Source: Ruminococcus sp.
GTDB lineage: Bacteria; Bacillota; Clostridia; Oscillospirales; Ruminococcaceae
Length of the DNA: 36,580 nucleotides
Direction of reading: 5' to 3'
NCBI GenBank assembly: GCA_015066975.1
Contig: SVNI01000011.1
Span: 1 to 36,580, forward strand
Positions 1,758 through 26,987 of the stretch are shown in pieces. A program made the translations under genes and the position numbers. Position 1 is the stretch's first letter, and every line of letters starts with the position of its first letter. The notes under the pieces are model-generated. The model ran no database searches. It had not been told where the DNA came from and saw only the letters and a list, made by a program, of their open reading frames with translations.

Positions 1758-3263
1758 ATGAAACGAAATATTCTGAAAGATACCGTTCTGCTGACAGTCA
1801 TCCAGATGCTTCTTGACGGAATGAGCCTTCTGCTCAATTCGTTTATGACAAAGCATCTCGGCACGGAAGCCATGGGCGTTCTGACACTGACAGGCTCATT
1901 TTTCCGGCTGGCTTCCATGATTGCCGGCGGAAATGTATTTCTGTGTGCAAGCCGTTTTATTTCTGAAGAACTCGGAAAAGAAATCCGAAATCCGAAGAAA
2001 GTGTTGTTCTATTGTCTGGCGGTCAGTCTGGGAATGAGTGCGTTTGTCAGCCTGATGATTATCCTGTTCGCACCGTGGTGCGGAATGCATTTTCTGAAAA
2101 ATCCCGATTTGACAAGTCCGGTTCGTCTGATGGCAGTTTCCCTGCCTTTGGTGACAGTTGTCGCCTGTCTGAAAGGCTACTGCAACGCCTGCTGTAAAAC
2201 AGGCATCTGTGCTTCGGCAGATGCCGTTGATTTTCTGATGCATACCCTTCTGACGGCATGTGCTGTCTGGTTCATGCACCCGGCAACACATGCAGGAATC
2301 TGTTATATGACAGCATACTGCACTATCGGGAGCGAACTGATAACACTGCTGTTTCTGTTATGCTGTCTGCCGAAATGCCGGACGGATGCCACCGGAACAG
2401 TTTCGATTTCACTTAAGAAATATATTATGCTTGCGATTCCGGTGATGACAGGTTCAACACTGACTTCTTTTCTCAGCTCGGCAAATGATGCGCTTGTTCC
2501 GATTACGCTGAAACAATCCGGAAACTCCAGTGCGGAAGCTTTGAGTCAGTTCGGCATTTTTGAAGCAATTGTGATTCCGGTGCTGTTTTTTCCGTCCACG
2601 GTGCTGGTATCGCTTTCAGGTATTCTGATTACGGAAACAGCAAGGGAAAATTCCGCCTGTAACAAGAGCCGAATCACCTGCATGGCAGAAAAAGCAGTTC
2701 AGAAAACAATTATCTTCGCAGTATTTGTGACGGAAATTCTGATTCTGTTCGGGGATGAAATCGGCGAACTTTTGGGCGGTGGCATCACTGCCGGAAGAAC
2801 GATTGCCATGATAGCACCTGTTGTGCCGTTCATCTATCTGGAAATCGTTCTGGAGAGCATCATCAAAGGAACAGGTTCACAGGCCTTTTCATCACTGAAT
2901 TATCTAGCAGAATATATTGTCAGAATCTCCTGTGTGCTGATTTTCATCCCGATAATGGGATTTTACGGAATTGTATTATCTTATTATGCAAGCAATATTT
3001 TCGGAAACATCAGCAGAATCCTGCATGTTATCAAGAAAACTGGAATGGAATTTTCTCTTGTGAAGCTGTTCGGTATCCCGATATTTTCGGCAGTACTGTC
3101 AGCACAGATGCTGCTGATGCTGTTTCATGTGATACATGTCGCACCGGAAGGGCATATTGTTAGCATGATAATTTTTTCAGGGCTTTGCTGTCCGATATAT
3201 TTCCTGATACAGAAAGAACTGTCTGCATTACATTTCCGCACAGCAAGCCCCGAAAAAAGCTGA
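1758..3263 (+). CDS. MATE/MOP-superfamily flippase, SpoVB-like polysaccharide exporter
   Basis: A 501-residue, strongly hydrophobic protein with about 12-14 predicted membrane segments and no cleavable signal peptide. The N-terminus (KDTVLLTVIQMLLDGMSLLLNS) and the repeated GxxAMGxxTLxGS-type segment resemble the MOP exporter superfamily (SpoVB, MurJ, MATE, Wzx). Family knowledge: these flip lipid-linked sugar precursors or efflux small molecules across the membrane. The ATG follows CCGAAAGG with suitable spacing. It stands alone between the GH5 terminator and the Ro60 promoter, so no pathway partner identifies the substrate. A MATE drug exporter is the main alternative, but the length and layout fit the SpoVB/oligosaccharide flippase branch better. 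Confidence 0.8.
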   Translation: MKRNILKDTVLLTVIQMLLDGMSLLLNSFMTKHLGTEAMGVLTLTGSFFRLASMIAGGNVFLCASRFISEELGKEIRNPKKVLFYCLAVSLGMSAFVSLMIILFAPWCGMHFLKNPDLTSPVRLMAVSLPLVTVVACLKGYCNACCKTGICASADAVDFLMHTLLTACAVWFMHPATHAGICYMTAYCTIGSELITLLFLLCCLPKCRTDATGTVSISLKKYIMLAIPVMTGSTLTSFLSSANDALVPITLKQSGNSSAEALSQFGIFEAIVIPVLFFPSTVLVSLSGILITETARENSACNKSRITCMAEKAVQKTIIFAVFVTEILILFGDEIGELLGGGITAGRTIAMIAPVVPFIYLEIVLESIIKGTGSQAFSSLNYLAEYIVRISCVLIFIPIMGFYGIVLSYYASNIFGNISRILHVIKKTGMEFSLVKLFGIPIFSAVLSAQMLLMLFHVIHVAPEGHIVSMIIFSGLCCPIYFLIQKELSALHFRTASPEKS

Positions 3264-3342
3264 TTTTTTGTTTATCATATACAAAAACAATGTCCGGATA
3301 TTATAATTTTTTCCAAATATTTCACTGTTTTCCAAAAAGCTA

Positions 3343-3370
3343 TTGACATTTCAGAATTTTGTGATATAAT
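3343..3370 (+). promoter_or_regulatory. Sigma-A promoter of the Ro60 transcript
   Basis: TTGACA at 3343-3348, 16-nt spacer, TATAAT at 3365-3370. Start is predicted near 3377, which leaves a leader of about 190 nt before the Ro60 start codon. Confidence 0.85.
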
Positions 3371-3405
3371 AATATCATTGAGTTTCCATTCAGCTCAGTC
3401 CGTTT

Positions 3406-3434
3406 CAAAGTGTCAGTTGTGGAATGATACTTTG
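3406..3434 (+). other. Hairpin in the Ro60 leader
   Basis: CAAAGTGTCA (3406-3415) pairs with TGATACTTTG (3425-3434), ten pairs with one G-U and a 9-nt loop. There is no T-tract, so it is not a terminator. It lies about 30 nt after the predicted transcription start. Confidence 0.55.
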
Positions 3435-3470
3435 TCATACTATTTCCAGAATTAATATTTGTCAGTGTAC

Positions 3471-3539
3471 GCCGTGATGCTTTAAGAGGTTAGATTTCAA
3501 GATTGTAATCGTTTGTTGTTTTTAAAGTCAGTCAACGGC
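3471..3539 (+). ncRNA. Possible fourth Y-RNA-like element in the Ro60 leader
   Basis: GCCGT (3471-3475) pairs with ACGGC (3535-3539), and an inner helix CTTTAA (3480-3485) pairs with TTAAAG (3522-3527). The 5' arm carries GTGATGC, a short gap, then GGTTAG, which loosely matches the TGATGCAG/GTTACTTC block of the three RNAs downstream of Ro60. It lacks the ATTC that precedes their 3' arms. It could instead be an autoregulatory Ro60-binding leader or chance. Confidence 0.35.
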
Positions 3540-3568
3540 AATTATTTTTTCTCTTTCAGGAGGCAAAT

Positions 3569-5209
3569 ATGAGCAGGATTTCTAAAGAAGTTTCCCGCAT
3601 GAATGAAGAAAACAAACTTAGACGTGACGAAACTGTCATGAATTTCATGGGCGGTGATTCCTATCGGATTAATCCCTTGGATACGCTCAAAATGATAGCA
3701 GCTTCTTCCATATTTGGCGAAGCTTCCTATTATCGAAGCAACGTCCGCGACGGAAAATTTTATTTTGAAACTGAATTCAGTGATGAATTCGCCAAAATGA
3801 TTTTCAGCATCTATGACGGAAAATCCACAACAGAAATCTTTCAGGAGACAATTGATGCTGCTCTGGATTACGATTTCAAAGCTACGCTGGAACTCGCGGC
3901 TGAACTCCGGCACACCTATCATATGCGTTTGAATCCGCAGGTGATTATGGTCAGAGCCGCTGTACATCCCAAAAGAAAAGCCTTTACAGAAGAATATCCT
4001 AACGAATTCAACAGAATCAATCAGCTTGTGATGTACAGAGCTGATGAGCCTTGTACCCAGTTATCCTATTATCTGTATCTGACAGGCGGAAAGAAGAATC
4101 AGATTCCCTCTGTTCTGAAAAGAAGCCTTGCCAGAAAGCTTTCTGGTCTGTCGGCTTATGCCGTCAATAAGTATAAAAATGCTGAAATCGGCATGATTAA
4201 TGCTGTGCGTATCACTCATGCAAACAGCCCGGTTCTCAACGAACTGATGAAAACAGGTGCTGTTTCCGTTGAGGAATCCCAGCAGACATGGGAACAGAAA
4301 CGCTCCGCTGGTATGGAGTGGCGCGAAATCGTCCAGACTACTGATATGGGGCACATGGCTATGCTCCGGAATCTGCGGAATATCTTCACAGAATTGGATG
4401 ATTTGCAGTTCTGTTTCGGCTATCTTGAAAAGCTGAAAGCCGGTGTTCTGACCGGAAAACAGTTTCCGTTCCGGTATTATTCTGCTTATCAGGCAGTCAA
4501 GAAAGCTGAAAACATTCACCATAGAAAAGAAATTCTGAACGCACTGGAAGAATGCATTGACATTTCTCTTGCGAACATGCCGAAGCTCAAAGGCAGGACA
4601 ATGTGTCTTTCTGATAATTCCGGTTCAGCATGGGGATGCATTCCATCAGAATACGGTTCTGTGACGATTGCAGAGATTGATAATCTTTCTTCTGTTATCG
4701 CAGTGAAATGCTCCGAAGAAGGTCAGGTTGGCAAATTCGGTGACAAGCTTGTCGTGTTCAATGTGAACGAAAGCACACTGAAACAGACAGAGATTATCAC
4801 TTCCGGCAAATATGCCGATGTAGGTGCATCTACAGAAGGCGGTATCTGGAAATTCTTCCGGGATGCTATTAAAAACAAGACATTCTATGATAATATCTTC
4901 ATCTTCTCCGACCAGCAGGCAGGCACAGGCGGTCTGTACGGTACAAGCGAAGATACCAGAGAATATAAAGAACAGGGCTATCTCTGTAAAAACAGTTATA
5001 TCAATGTCTACAAGCTGATTCTTAAATACAGAAAACAGGTTAATCCAAAAGTGAATGTATTCAGTGTGCAGACAGCCGGATATAACAACGTACTGCTTCC
5101 GCAGATGTCTTACAGATGCGCCATGCTGACGGGCTGGACAGGAAAAGAAATTCAGTTTGCTGCCGAATACATCCGGCAGTGGAATGAACTCGAACATCTT
5201 GAAAATTAA
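3569..5209 (+). CDS. rsr: Ro60-family RNA-binding protein (TROVE + vWA domains), Rsr-like
   Basis: 546 residues, close to vertebrate Ro60 (538) and bacterial Rsr. The TROVE HEAT-repeat ring covers about residues 20-330 (NFMGGDSYRINPLDTLKMI at its start, then helical repeats such as RDETV, LRHTYHMRLNPQVIM, LRNLRNIF). A von Willebrand A domain follows, with the MIDAS motif DNSGS at 349-353 (DxSxS intact) and FIFSDQQAG as a later metal-site segment. Family knowledge: Ro60 binds Y RNAs on its outer surface and single-stranded ends of misfolded RNA in its central hole; in Deinococcus it is tethered by Y RNA to PNPase, and in Salmonella it sits with RtcBA. Here no nuclease or ligase gene adjoins it. 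The start has AGGAGG at 3558-3563, 5 nt upstream. Three Y-like RNAs begin 7 nt after the stop codon. The symbol is given by homology. Confidence 0.93.
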   Translation: MSRISKEVSRMNEENKLRRDETVMNFMGGDSYRINPLDTLKMIAASSIFGEASYYRSNVRDGKFYFETEFSDEFAKMIFSIYDGKSTTEIFQETIDAALDYDFKATLELAAELRHTYHMRLNPQVIMVRAAVHPKRKAFTEEYPNEFNRINQLVMYRADEPCTQLSYYLYLTGGKKNQIPSVLKRSLARKLSGLSAYAVNKYKNAEIGMINAVRITHANSPVLNELMKTGAVSVEESQQTWEQKRSAGMEWREIVQTTDMGHMAMLRNLRNIFTELDDLQFCFGYLEKLKAGVLTGKQFPFRYYSAYQAVKKAENIHHRKEILNALEECIDISLANMPKLKGRTMCLSDNSGSAWGCIPSEYGSVTIAEIDNLSSVIAVKCSEEGQVGKFGDKLVVFNVNESTLKQTEIITSGKYADVGASTEGGIWKFFRDAIKNKTFYDNIFIFSDQQAGTGGLYGTSEDTREYKEQGYLCKNSYINVYKLILKYRKQVNPKVNVFSVQTAGYNNVLLPQMSYRCAMLTGWTGKEIQFAAEYIRQWNELEHLEN

Positions 5210-5216
5210 ATAATAG

Positions 5217-5380
5217 CAGTCATGATGCAGTGGCATAGGTTACTTCTTTTTTTATGAAACACAGTGAAAGGCTGAAATCCGGAACTTTCCGCGGTGCAGT
5301 CCGCGTCAACAACCACATGGAGAGCCGTTTCCATGTAAAAAACGTGCTCAAGTTATCCCGTGCCGGCATTCTCATGACTG
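5217..5380 (+). ncRNA. Candidate Y RNA A (Ro60-associated), 164 nt
   Basis: The 5' arm CAGTCATGA (5217-5225) pairs over 9 bp with TCATGACTG (5372-5380). TGC (5226-5228) then pairs with GCA (5366-5368), leaving TTC bulged on the 3' side. A further helix pairs TGGCATAGGTTA (5231-5242) with TATCCCGTGCCG (from 5354) at 10 of 12 positions counting G-U. The insert holds two hairpins: CGCGG/CCGCG (5290-5294/5301-5305) and ACATGGA/TCCATGT (5315-5321/5330-5336), possibly a tRNA-like module as in YrlA RNAs. The 5' arm carries the block shared by all three RNAs, TGATGCAG and GTTACTTC. It follows the Ro60 stop by 7 nt and has no promoter of its own that I can see, so processing from the Ro60 transcript is likely. 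True ends are not determined. Confidence 0.75.
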
Positions 5381-5398
5381 TCCTTAAAAAATCACATG

Positions 5399-5481
5399 CT
5401 GATGTGATGCAGGGATACAGTTACTTCTATTTTTTAGGGAAAAATACGACTTTTTTACTGTCTTCGAGATTCTCACATCAG
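5399..5481 (+). ncRNA. Candidate Y RNA B, minimal form of 83 nt
   Basis: The terminal helix is CTGATGTGA (5399-5407) with TCACATCAG (5473-5481), 9 bp, all different in sequence from RNA A beyond the inner TGA/TCA, so the change is compensated on both arms. The inner helix pairs GGATACAGT with ACTGTCTTC (5456-5464) at 8 of 9 positions. The conserved TGATGCAG/GTTACTTC block and the ATTC before the 3' arm are present. Only a short A/T-rich loop fills the middle, so this RNA lacks the extra module of A and C. An alternative hairpin, ATCACAT/ATGTGAT (5391-5397/5402-5408), competes with its 5' arm and may be a processing signal. The gap to RNA A is 18 nt. Confidence 0.75.
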
Positions 5482-5495
5482 GCTCTTGTAAAAAT

Positions 5496-5699
5496 CAGTC
5501 ATGATGCAGAAGTATCAGTTACTTCGGAAATTATTATGGATGAATATTAACAGACGCTTTTTTAAGTGTTCGTGGAAAATCCACATAAAATGGAGCAGAC
5601 CATTCCAAAAAGCGGGGGAGAAAACCTCCTTACAAAACATCTTTACAATTGAATATTTGATATTGAATTTTAACTGATACATTTTTATTCTCATGATTG
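5496..5699 (+). ncRNA. Candidate Y RNA C, 204 nt with multi-hairpin module
   Basis: The terminal helix is CAGTCATGA (5496-5504) with TCATGATTG (5691-5699), 9 bp including one G-U. A second perfect 9-bp helix pairs TATCAGTTA (5513-5521) with TAACTGATA (5671-5679). The conserved 5' block and the 3' ATTC are present. Between the helices lie at least three hairpins: GTGGA/TCCAC (5572-5584), AATGG/CCATT (5589-5604) and GGGGG/CCTCC (5614-5629), which gives a branched, possibly tRNA-like domain. The gap to RNA B is 14 nt, and a hairpin begins 2 nt after the 3' arm. As with the others, function rests on structure and on adjacency to Ro60. Confidence 0.75.
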
Positions 5700-5701
5700 T
5701 T

Positions 5702-5738
5702 GAAATCCCCTGCACGTTTCCGGACGGGCAGGGATTTC
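5702..5738 (+). terminator. Probable terminator of the Ro60-Y RNA transcript
   Basis: GAAATCCC plus TGC (5702-5713, one bulged C) pairs with GCA plus GGGATTTC (5728-5738), followed by a weak T-rich run TTTCTTTAT. It directly follows RNA C. Confidence 0.6.
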
Positions 5739-5751
5739 TTTATCTGGATAT

Positions 5752-5778
5752 AAAAACAGCTCCTGAAATCAGAAGCTG
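5752..5778 (-). terminator. Terminator of the tRNA-Leu pair
   Basis: Read on the minus strand, a 10-bp stem (CAGCTTCTGA with TCAGGAGCTG, one G-U) is followed by five T. It lies 13 nt past the second tRNA. Confidence 0.8.
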
Positions 5779-5791
5779 AAAAAAATAAAAG

Positions 5792-5875
5792 TGCGGATAA
5801 AAGGACTTGAACCTTCACCGGGTTGCCCCGACTAGCACCTGAAGCTAGCGCGTCTGCCAATTCCGCCATATCCGC
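5792..5875 (-). tRNA. tRNA-Leu(CAG), second of the pair
   Basis: 84 nt with a 7-bp acceptor stem GCGGATA/TATCCGC, anticodon loop TTCAGGT giving anticodon CAG (reads CUG), a long class II variable arm and a T-arm with TTCAAGT. CCA is not encoded. It is almost identical to the copy at 5901-5984; the T-stem differs by a compensated pair (AAGG/CCTT here, GAGG/CCTC there). Confidence 0.97.
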
Positions 5876-5900
5876 ATATTGAATATTAAATTTTATTGAG

Positions 5901-5984
5901 TGCGGATAAGAGGACTTGAACCTCCACCGAGTTGCCCCGACTAGCACCTGAAGCTAGCGCGTCTGCCAATTCCGCCATATCCGC
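5901..5984 (-). tRNA. tRNA-Leu(CAG), first of the pair
   Basis: 84 nt, same acceptor stem, D-arm and anticodon arm (anticodon CAG) as the copy downstream. The variable arm has AACTCGG instead of AACCCGG. CCA is not encoded. It is transcribed first from the promoter at 6027-6055; a 25-nt A/T-rich spacer separates the two tRNAs. Confidence 0.97.
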
Positions 5985-26703: not shown

Positions 26704-26987
26704 ATATCAGTTTAAATGCGACGATGGGAAAAAAGTTTTAGATTTCTGTTTACAGCGAGCTGTCGGACGGTGTGAGACAGCATCAGAACTGAAGCACAGC
26801 TCCTCCCTGAGCAGATGCGCTGAATTTTCAGTAAGTGCATTCGGGTGCTCCCGTTACAGAGATATGTATTTATTTTTATAGATACAGAAAAGTGGGTATG
26901 AATTTTTTCATATCAAAAAGAGTGGTACCGCGGAGTGACCCTTCGTCTCTTTTATGTCATCAGATTATGACATGAAAGAGTTTTTTT
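26704..26987 (+). promoter_or_regulatory. T-box riboswitch, leucine type, with terminator
   Basis: The T-box sequence TGGTACCGCGG is at 26923-26933. Stem I lies upstream, with AGCGAGCTGT and GGTGTGAGACAGC as the distal parts, and CTC at 26800-26802 just before CTCCCTGAGC as the likely specifier (Leu). The terminator pairs CTCTTT-TATGTCAT with ATGACATG-AAAGAG (26947-26980), followed by seven T; the antiterminator pairs AGAG before the T-box with the same CTCT. Uncharged tRNA-Leu would favour read-through into leuA. The specifier position is inferred from spacing; the T-box itself is certain. Confidence 0.93.

Follow-up and report, generated by a model that had tools for sequence, protein, structure and literature searches.

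A Ro60 gene with three Y-RNA-like RNAs in a Ruminococcus genome and related arrays in viral contigs

We analyzed a 36,580-nucleotide (nt) stretch of DNA from Ruminococcus sp. (contig SVNI01000011.1 of assembly GCA_015066975.1), hereafter the window, in which the gene of a Ro60-type protein is followed on the same strand by three putative Y-RNA-like RNAs, RNA1 to RNA3 (Table 1). Together these elements probably make up a phage-type cassette of Ro60 and Y RNAs that now resides in a Ruminococcus-like genus of the rumen and has several exchangeable adaptors. Computation supports the structure of the RNAs, their conservation, their linkage to Ro60 and their sharing with viral contigs.

The three RNAs and their shared module

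A previous reading of the window, based on its sequence alone, had placed three same-strand RNAs behind Ro60, with gaps of 7 nt (Ro60 to RNA1), 18 nt (RNA1 to RNA2) and 14 nt (RNA2 to RNA3), and these coordinates were borne out. Every RNA is laid out as a 9-base-pair (bp) strand, TGATGCAG-N7/8-GTTACTTC, an intervening part, and ATTC with the matching strand. The shared block described by the sequence-only reading is present in all three RNAs, with a spacer of 7-8 nt rather than about nine; the 9-bp closing helix with ATTC before its 3′ arm is present as well, with one G-U pair in the helix of RNA3, and the hairpin at the end of the cluster was recovered as a predicted fold. A second helix, P2, unlisted in that reading, was found in all three RNAs.

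Table 1. Features of the Ro60 locus, in window coordinates
Feature	Position	Strand	Remarks
Sigma-70 promoter-like site TTGACA-16-TATAAT, before Ro60	3343-3370	+	12/12 consensus match
Long 5′ leader of Ro60 mRNA	3371-3568	+	Conserved in 8 genus genomes
Ro60-type protein gene (TROVE + vWA), 546 amino acids	3569-5209	+	Open reading frame, Pfam TROVE, PHROG 850
Y-RNA-like RNA1, 164 nt	5217-5380	+	Distal part with several hairpins
Y-RNA-like RNA2, 83 nt	5399-5481	+	Minimal form, ~30-nt distal loop
Y-RNA-like RNA3, 204 nt	5496-5699	+	Distal string of small hairpins, A-rich linkers
G+C-rich hairpin with T-rich tail, array end	5702-5738	+	Predicted fold

The pattern TGATGCAG-N(4-14)-GTTACTTC matched the window three times on the plus strand, never on the minus strand, and not once in 200 dinucleotide shuffles. 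None of 200 shuffles of the RNA's own downstream sequence equalled the joint score of helices P1 and P2 for RNA1, RNA2 or RNA3. Folding z-scores were -3.6, -2.6 and -4.0, respectively (the figure for RNA3 takes in the closing hairpin), and the distal part of RNA3, with five predicted hairpins, had a z-score of -2.0.

In its general form the module runs from P1 through a UGCAG internal loop, P2 and UUACUUC to a distal part, which varies, and back through the return strands. We defined it on 49 RNAs from 18 loci, namely 17 with Ro60 and a second array of the window's own genome (G000), described below. In this set P1 spans 7-10 positions and P2 6-9, the 5′ loop is of UGCAG type, UUACUUC is present as such or as a near variant, the distal part measures 16-326 nt, and the 3′ side consists of P2′, a U-rich loop and P1′. 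Of 60 arm pairs scored, 11 were removed by eye before the counts, among them at least three (L027:6205, L034:5208 and L034:5487) that may be real RNAs for which the wrong partner was picked; in the alignment (A1) the 3′ arms of L030_4636, L026_3975 and L017_1196 were re-set by hand to the genomic letters. Of the 824 cells of the spliced alignment 86.9% are paired, compared with 37.8-46.3% when the arms are slid by 1-3 columns and 57.7% when they are shuffled; the covariation score is 0.724 against maxima of 0.146 (slid) and 0.215 (shuffled). A P1+P2 score of at least 30 was reached by 47 of the 49 real RNAs and by 0.8% of 490 shuffled downstream trials. Because 3′ arms chosen for pairing bias the spliced count, an unspliced alignment was made of the RNA2 orthologs, which are present in eight genus genomes. 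RNAalifold returned the same two helices from it, with six pairs changing on both sides, and 97.1% of its cells are paired, compared with at most 52.2% when slid.

These comparisons support a structured, covarying module that is apparently Y-RNA-like: its stem is formed from the 5′ and 3′ ends with an internal loop, as is characteristic of bacterial Y RNAs, and it is encoded beside Ro60. The Y-RNA-like identity proposed by the sequence-only reading was strengthened by the covarying helices, by the close Ro60 linkage and by same-module copies elsewhere in G000, one of which matches YrlA.

Individual RNAs have features of their own. By eye, a T-arm-like hairpin, CGCGG-UGCAGU-CCGCG, can be drawn in RNA1; it is found in the predicted folds of the RNA1 orthologs of genomes G197 and G199 and is absent from the predicted best fold of window RNA1 itself. 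RNA3 orthologs vary in length among genomes, and that of G197 (L030, 4735 onward) has a 326-nt distal part of repeated, similar small hairpins with A-rich linkers. An open reading frame of 98 amino acids that runs across the array (5254-5550) was rejected as a gene, as it starts inside RNA1, which G207 lacks. At gathering scores an Rfam scan of the window reported a T-box and two tRNAs and nothing else, and a permissive scan of 3264-5790 gave chance-level matches only, with no Y RNA and none above chance in the Ro60 leader.

Distribution in bacteria and viral contigs

Ro60 was detected (E <= 1e-5) in 10 of 38 genomes of the genus: eight encode the window type (77-100% identity, the window's own included) and two a distant protein (28-30%). 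Directly downstream of Ro60, all eight window-type loci have 2-4 copies of the motif; the conserved helix and block that the sequence-only reading expected beside TROVE genes of relatives are thus in place. At the two distant loci the copies lie upstream of Ro60. Among 391 genomes of the class, eight carry Ro60, 29-33% identical to that of the window, and at five class loci of one family (f57) three RNAs each are encoded upstream of it; at L014, the one of these loci compared with YrlA, the second RNA matches it at 50.9 bits, below the gathering score of 69. Farther out, at E <= 1e-20, the window's own genome alone matched Ro60 among order and phylum genomes (1/394 and 1/398), and a scan of one genome per species over 84,980 species found two close relatives, both contigs of this genus.

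A covariance model built from bacterial RNAs without viral rows (R1) was searched at E <= 0.01. It matched 10 of the 38 genus genomes, nine of them Ro60-positive (E <= 2.6e-6) and the tenth G205 (0.0064), and seven of the 391 class genomes, six of them Ro60-positive (E <= 5e-9) and the seventh G444 (0.0092). RNA2 scores 51.2 bits against R1, but it is itself a training row. Since training rows come from the same loci, the bacterial positives do not count as independent evidence, as the near-absence elsewhere does. Absences of R1 at particular loci mean little, because the model misses long-loop RNAs. Lone pattern matches in G206, G223, G227, G221 (contig C183) and G200 (contig C137) were taken as chance-like, each standing alone.

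On another contig of the window's genome (C7; the window is C4), three further copies of the module lie behind a promoter-like site and upstream of a gene that we take to be rpsJ, in part from the S10-Clostridia leader between array and gene. With the three RNAs at Ro60, G000 therefore has at least six RNAs of this kind for a single TROVE match. In another five genomes with window-type Ro60 (G197, G200, G207, G211 and G028) rpsJ is preceded, on its own strand, by 2-4 copies, which brings the second cluster to six of the eight window-type genomes, G000 included; the arrays were sought by exact pattern, and any in G199 and G221 may have been missed. In G210, three second-array copies lie on a contig stretch with no match to rpsJ. 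Over eight genomes, the number of motif copies ranges from 2 to 7 per genome. One RNA of the G000 second array matches YrlA (RF02553) at 43.6 bits (E 1.5e-8), below the gathering score, and YrlA matches at E <= 0.01, to one or two RNAs each, occur in that array and in five of six other loci. The account of the window as a Y-RNA array holds but was incomplete, a second and partly tRNA-like array existing near rpsJ.

The S10-Clostridia leader (RF03136) is found between second array and rpsJ in six loci (L026 4464-4546; L073-L077). In L026 a promoter-like site (4407) precedes this leader, so the array and the ribosomal operon may be transcribed apart. Near the second array of G028 there is also a RAGATH-18 RNA match (L077 2124-2189, 56.5 bits).

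In viral contigs, a search with the Ro60 alignment gave 347 related stretches, of which the best 80 yielded 79 loci, whose Ro60s reach 65% identity to that of the window across almost their whole length. At the 67 unique loci the Ro60 strand offers 342 candidate sites, 114 of which have paired arms; the figures are 2 of 216 for the opposite strand and 11 of 223 when the motif is reversed. Of these loci, 53 have at least one paired-arm copy and 17 at least three. R1, given the 59 of the 79 loci that remained once near-copies were left out, made 33 matches in 26 of them. All of these fall on the strand of Ro60, and 70 control loci yielded no match. The controls are viral loci with no Ro60 found in the DNA examined, taken from a Ro60-blind pattern scan that yielded at least 120 stretches, of which 80 loci were examined. 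Among these 80 all six loci with at least two matches carry Ro60, and 9 of 11 paired-arm loci are on Ro60 contigs (L187 and L226 assigned by contig name). The viral arrays are downstream of Ro60 at some loci, as in the window, and upstream at others; some of their RNAs match YrlA weakly, and tRNA matches were found in eight of nine viral Ro60 loci scanned.

One of these loci (L142) is Bacillus phage G, whose Ro60, gp540, is 48.5% identical to that of the window. The unannotated 1.06 kb before gp540 has at least five copies of the motif (L171 4942-6000; NC_023719.1 406355-407413), and another gap close by has a weak match to YrlA (L142 820-906). In Listeria phage P100 (1-45000 and 88000-131384 of 131384) no array was found, and the scan gave two weak matches (28.4 and 29.1). 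The array is not confined to this bacterium, as viral contigs share it. For the suggestion that a three-RNA array of this sort may be new, the literature searched gives weak evidence, no matching description having been recognized in it; viral contigs carry such arrays too.

In a tree of 68 proteins the eight genus Ro60s form one clade (support 100/99). It is nested in a clade of 27 rows, 19 of them viral (100/99), which in turn belongs to one of 43 rows, 35 of them viral (100/100). The plasmid Ro60s of Deinococcus and Pseudomonas (35.8% and 37.5% identity) fall in a neighbouring clade. By sequence identity, viral contigs encode the closest Ro60s found beyond the genus, at up to 65% compared with 28-33% for other bacteria of the phylum samples. 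We infer that the transfer went from phage to host. It is conceivable, though we think it unlikely, that the gene flowed from host to phage or through an unsampled bacterial group: the viral rows were selected by their likeness to the window protein, and beyond the phylum the bacteria were represented by the two plasmid Ro60s alone. However, the genus is a single clade nested several forks deep in viral rows, other bacteria of the phylum sample offer relatives of 28-33% only, and the order, phylum and species-wide searches all led back to this genus.

Several further results weigh against the reading of a phage-type Ro60-Y RNA cassette, as do the sampling limits of the tree just named. At the level of the RNAs, 15 of the 17 pairs in the 49-RNA set changed on both sides, compared with a shuffle mean of 13.7 and with 94 of 500 shuffles as high, and the pair types of the RNA2 alignment were not above shuffles (106 of 500 as high). 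None of the window RNAs matched YrlA (RF02553), either at the gathering score or at E <= 10, and all YrlA matches of the second arrays lie under the gathering score (69 bits). In bacteria, R1 missed the Ro60-positive genomes G198 (genus), G379 and G615 (class), its positives include its own training rows, and its weak matches in G205 and G444 fall in genomes where no Ro60 was found; G210, which is 77% complete, has a second array and no detected Ro60. The viral sample is biased to the window protein, and the presence of phage genes was checked for phage G only. Of the 67 unique viral loci 14 have no paired-arm copy, and R1 matched no more than 26 of 59. Finally, two loci of the Ro60-blind scan, L203 (777) and L258 (minus strand), have paired arms and no Ro60 in the DNA examined; these copies may be due to chance or may be RNAs that use a Ro60 from elsewhere.

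The Ro60 gene, its leader and surroundings

The window protein matches Pfam TROVE at 26.4 bits (cut-off 23), over residues 239-321 only; residues 8-533 match PHROG 850 (E 9.6e-42), and TROVE-domain chains of the PDB match it at E 1.4e-8. In the alignment with relatives D349, S351 and S353 are invariant (D-x-S-x-S), and we take them to be the residues of the metal-ion-dependent adhesion site (MIDAS). No NCBIfam match was found at E <= 0.001, including to NF041674 (Rsr equivalog), and the protein is therefore filed under TROVE and not under NF041674.

A sigma-70-like site aligns in the leaders of all eight genus genomes with window-type Ro60, and that of the window probably serves the RNA array as well as the gene. 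Within the leader a 9-bp hairpin (~3407-3433) recurs in all eight genomes, with a varying stem and a near-invariant 9-nt loop; its UGGAA could pair with UUCCA at 3444-3448, a pseudoknot drawn by eye. The leader is possibly an autoregulatory element. The predicted hairpin that closes the array is likely a transcription terminator, although it was not listed by a terminator scan.

Upstream of Ro60 lies a gene for a MATE-type transporter (1758-3263), which is its neighbour in four of the eight genomes (G000, G199, G200 and G207) in the DNA examined; the cassette therefore sits at more than one place. Past the array there are two near-identical tRNA-Leu (CAG) genes (5791-5984, minus strand), and the window has a T-box leader at 26712-26953 (128.5 bits). 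A gene for an RtcB RNA ligase is encoded in the same genome on contig C176 (34698-35774), not on the Ro60 contig.

Known Ro60 systems and a possible function

Known bacterial Y RNAs attach to Ro60 through their lower stem, while the rest of the molecule contacts PNPase or imitates a tRNA (PMC4726728, PMC8394870). The window RNAs resemble YrlA in their long closing stem with an internal loop, in the Ro60 gene alongside and in having a distinct distal module. They differ in that the distal parts, instead of resembling tRNA, are either minimal or made of several hairpins, with no YrlA or tRNA match in any of the three and, of the T, D and acceptor arms, at most the T-arm-like hairpin drawn in RNA1, and in that several RNAs accompany one Ro60; two Rfam alignments of the YrlA stem with the shared stem give different registers. 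The rsr-yrlBA-rtcBA RNA repair operon of Salmonella, with a Ro60 ortholog, two Y RNAs and linked RtcBA/RtcR, likewise has more than one Y RNA per unit (PMC7790460), whereas the window has three RNAs and RtcB is on another contig. The Ro60 ring and Y RNA are also the elements of RYPER of Deinococcus (Rsr, Y RNA and PNPase), modelled there with a single Y RNA (PMC4726728, PMC8394870).

In phages, Ro60-like proteins have been reported for jumbo phages (PMC7824862), Vibrio phage pir03 (PMC7765460) and crAss001 (PMC10136315), and in Listeria phage CKA15 three highly transcribed regions near a Ro60-like gene were put forward by the authors as possible Y RNAs (PMC12282133); P100, in which we found no array in the two stretches scanned, is listed as its relative. 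Mycobacteriophage Y RNAs and phage YrlA are cited in these same phage papers (PMC7824862, PMC12282133, PMC7765460, PMC10136315). Both Ro60 proteins and Y RNAs of phages have been published before. In their accessible parts these reports mention no array of several RNAs built on one defined module, such as the copies of phage G, and those cited for bacteria describe Ro60 with one or two Y RNAs. In the literature searched, which leaves out subscription papers and key Y RNA reviews and is weak evidence of absence, we recognized neither multi-RNA Ro60 arrays of this kind nor, with the same limit, a description of Ro60 transfer between phage and genus. What appears to be new is that the nearest out-of-genus Ro60s found are viral, that the genus nests in viral rows and that many viral Ro60 loci have arrays.

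By analogy with the known systems, the three RNAs would be transcribed as separate molecules and bind Ro60, the constant stem (P1, UGCAG loop, P2, UUACUUC) of each being the binding site of the Ro60 ring and the variable distal part selecting what the ring works with or on. The minimal RNA2 may gate or stabilize the ring, RNA1 and RNA3 would be long, multi-hairpin adaptor forms, and partly tRNA-like forms would be supplied from the second promoter near rpsJ. Since one protein faces several adaptors, alternative ribonucleoproteins (RNPs) are possible, and their most likely task would be to process RNA that is damaged or structured together with PNPase or another nuclease, along the lines of RYPER. 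We give about even chances to the fuller scenario, in which a phage-born Ro60 RNP with its set of minimal, multi-hairpin and tRNA-mimic adaptors was domesticated by a rumen genus, part of it upstream of the S10 operon, and in which this multi-adaptor machine is also present in large phages, among them Bacillus phage G.

A rather improbable alternative is that the RNAs are decoys whose tRNA-like and hairpin modules lure tRNA enzymes or anticodon nucleases. Ro60 would protect the decoys or present them, and the whole would be a phage counter-defence that the host later kept. A decoy role has been proposed for YrlA (PMC7790460), and both the tRNA matches in most of the viral Ro60 loci scanned and the weak YrlA matches of some viral-array and second-array RNAs agree with it, but the window RNAs lack a full tRNA-like domain, the distal loop of RNA2 is short, and a Pfam scan of six proteins from around the locus revealed no nuclease among them. 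Still less probable is that the array is a structured 3′ untranslated region (UTR) through which Ro60 stabilizes or represses its own mRNA, rather than three RNA genes. The 7 nt between stop codon and RNA1, the single strong promoter-like site, upstream of Ro60, the hairpin that closes the array and the conserved, structured leader would all suit such an element; however, RNAs with this module also precede Ro60 in other bacteria and in viral contigs, and near rpsJ they occur unlinked to it and with a promoter-like site of their own; the RNAs therefore need not sit in a Ro60 3′ UTR. A chance or mobile repeat with no RNA role, which the tandem copies and their varying number behind Ro60 (2-4) might suggest, is very improbable and is already contradicted by the covariation, as well as by the compensatory changes, the shuffle controls and the close Ro60 linkage.

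The preferred reading, a phage-type Ro60-Y RNA cassette with exchangeable adaptors, offers practical openings. The largest sets, with at least six adjacent RNAs that keep a constant stem and differ in their distal parts, form a natural test set for the roles of stem and module. As viral contigs share the cassette, the question why phages carry Ro60 can be tested in the cultured Bacillus phage G. Finally, UGCAG-P2-UUACUUC provides an RNA signature for tracing further family members, which in the current Rfam model go unmatched or stay under its threshold.

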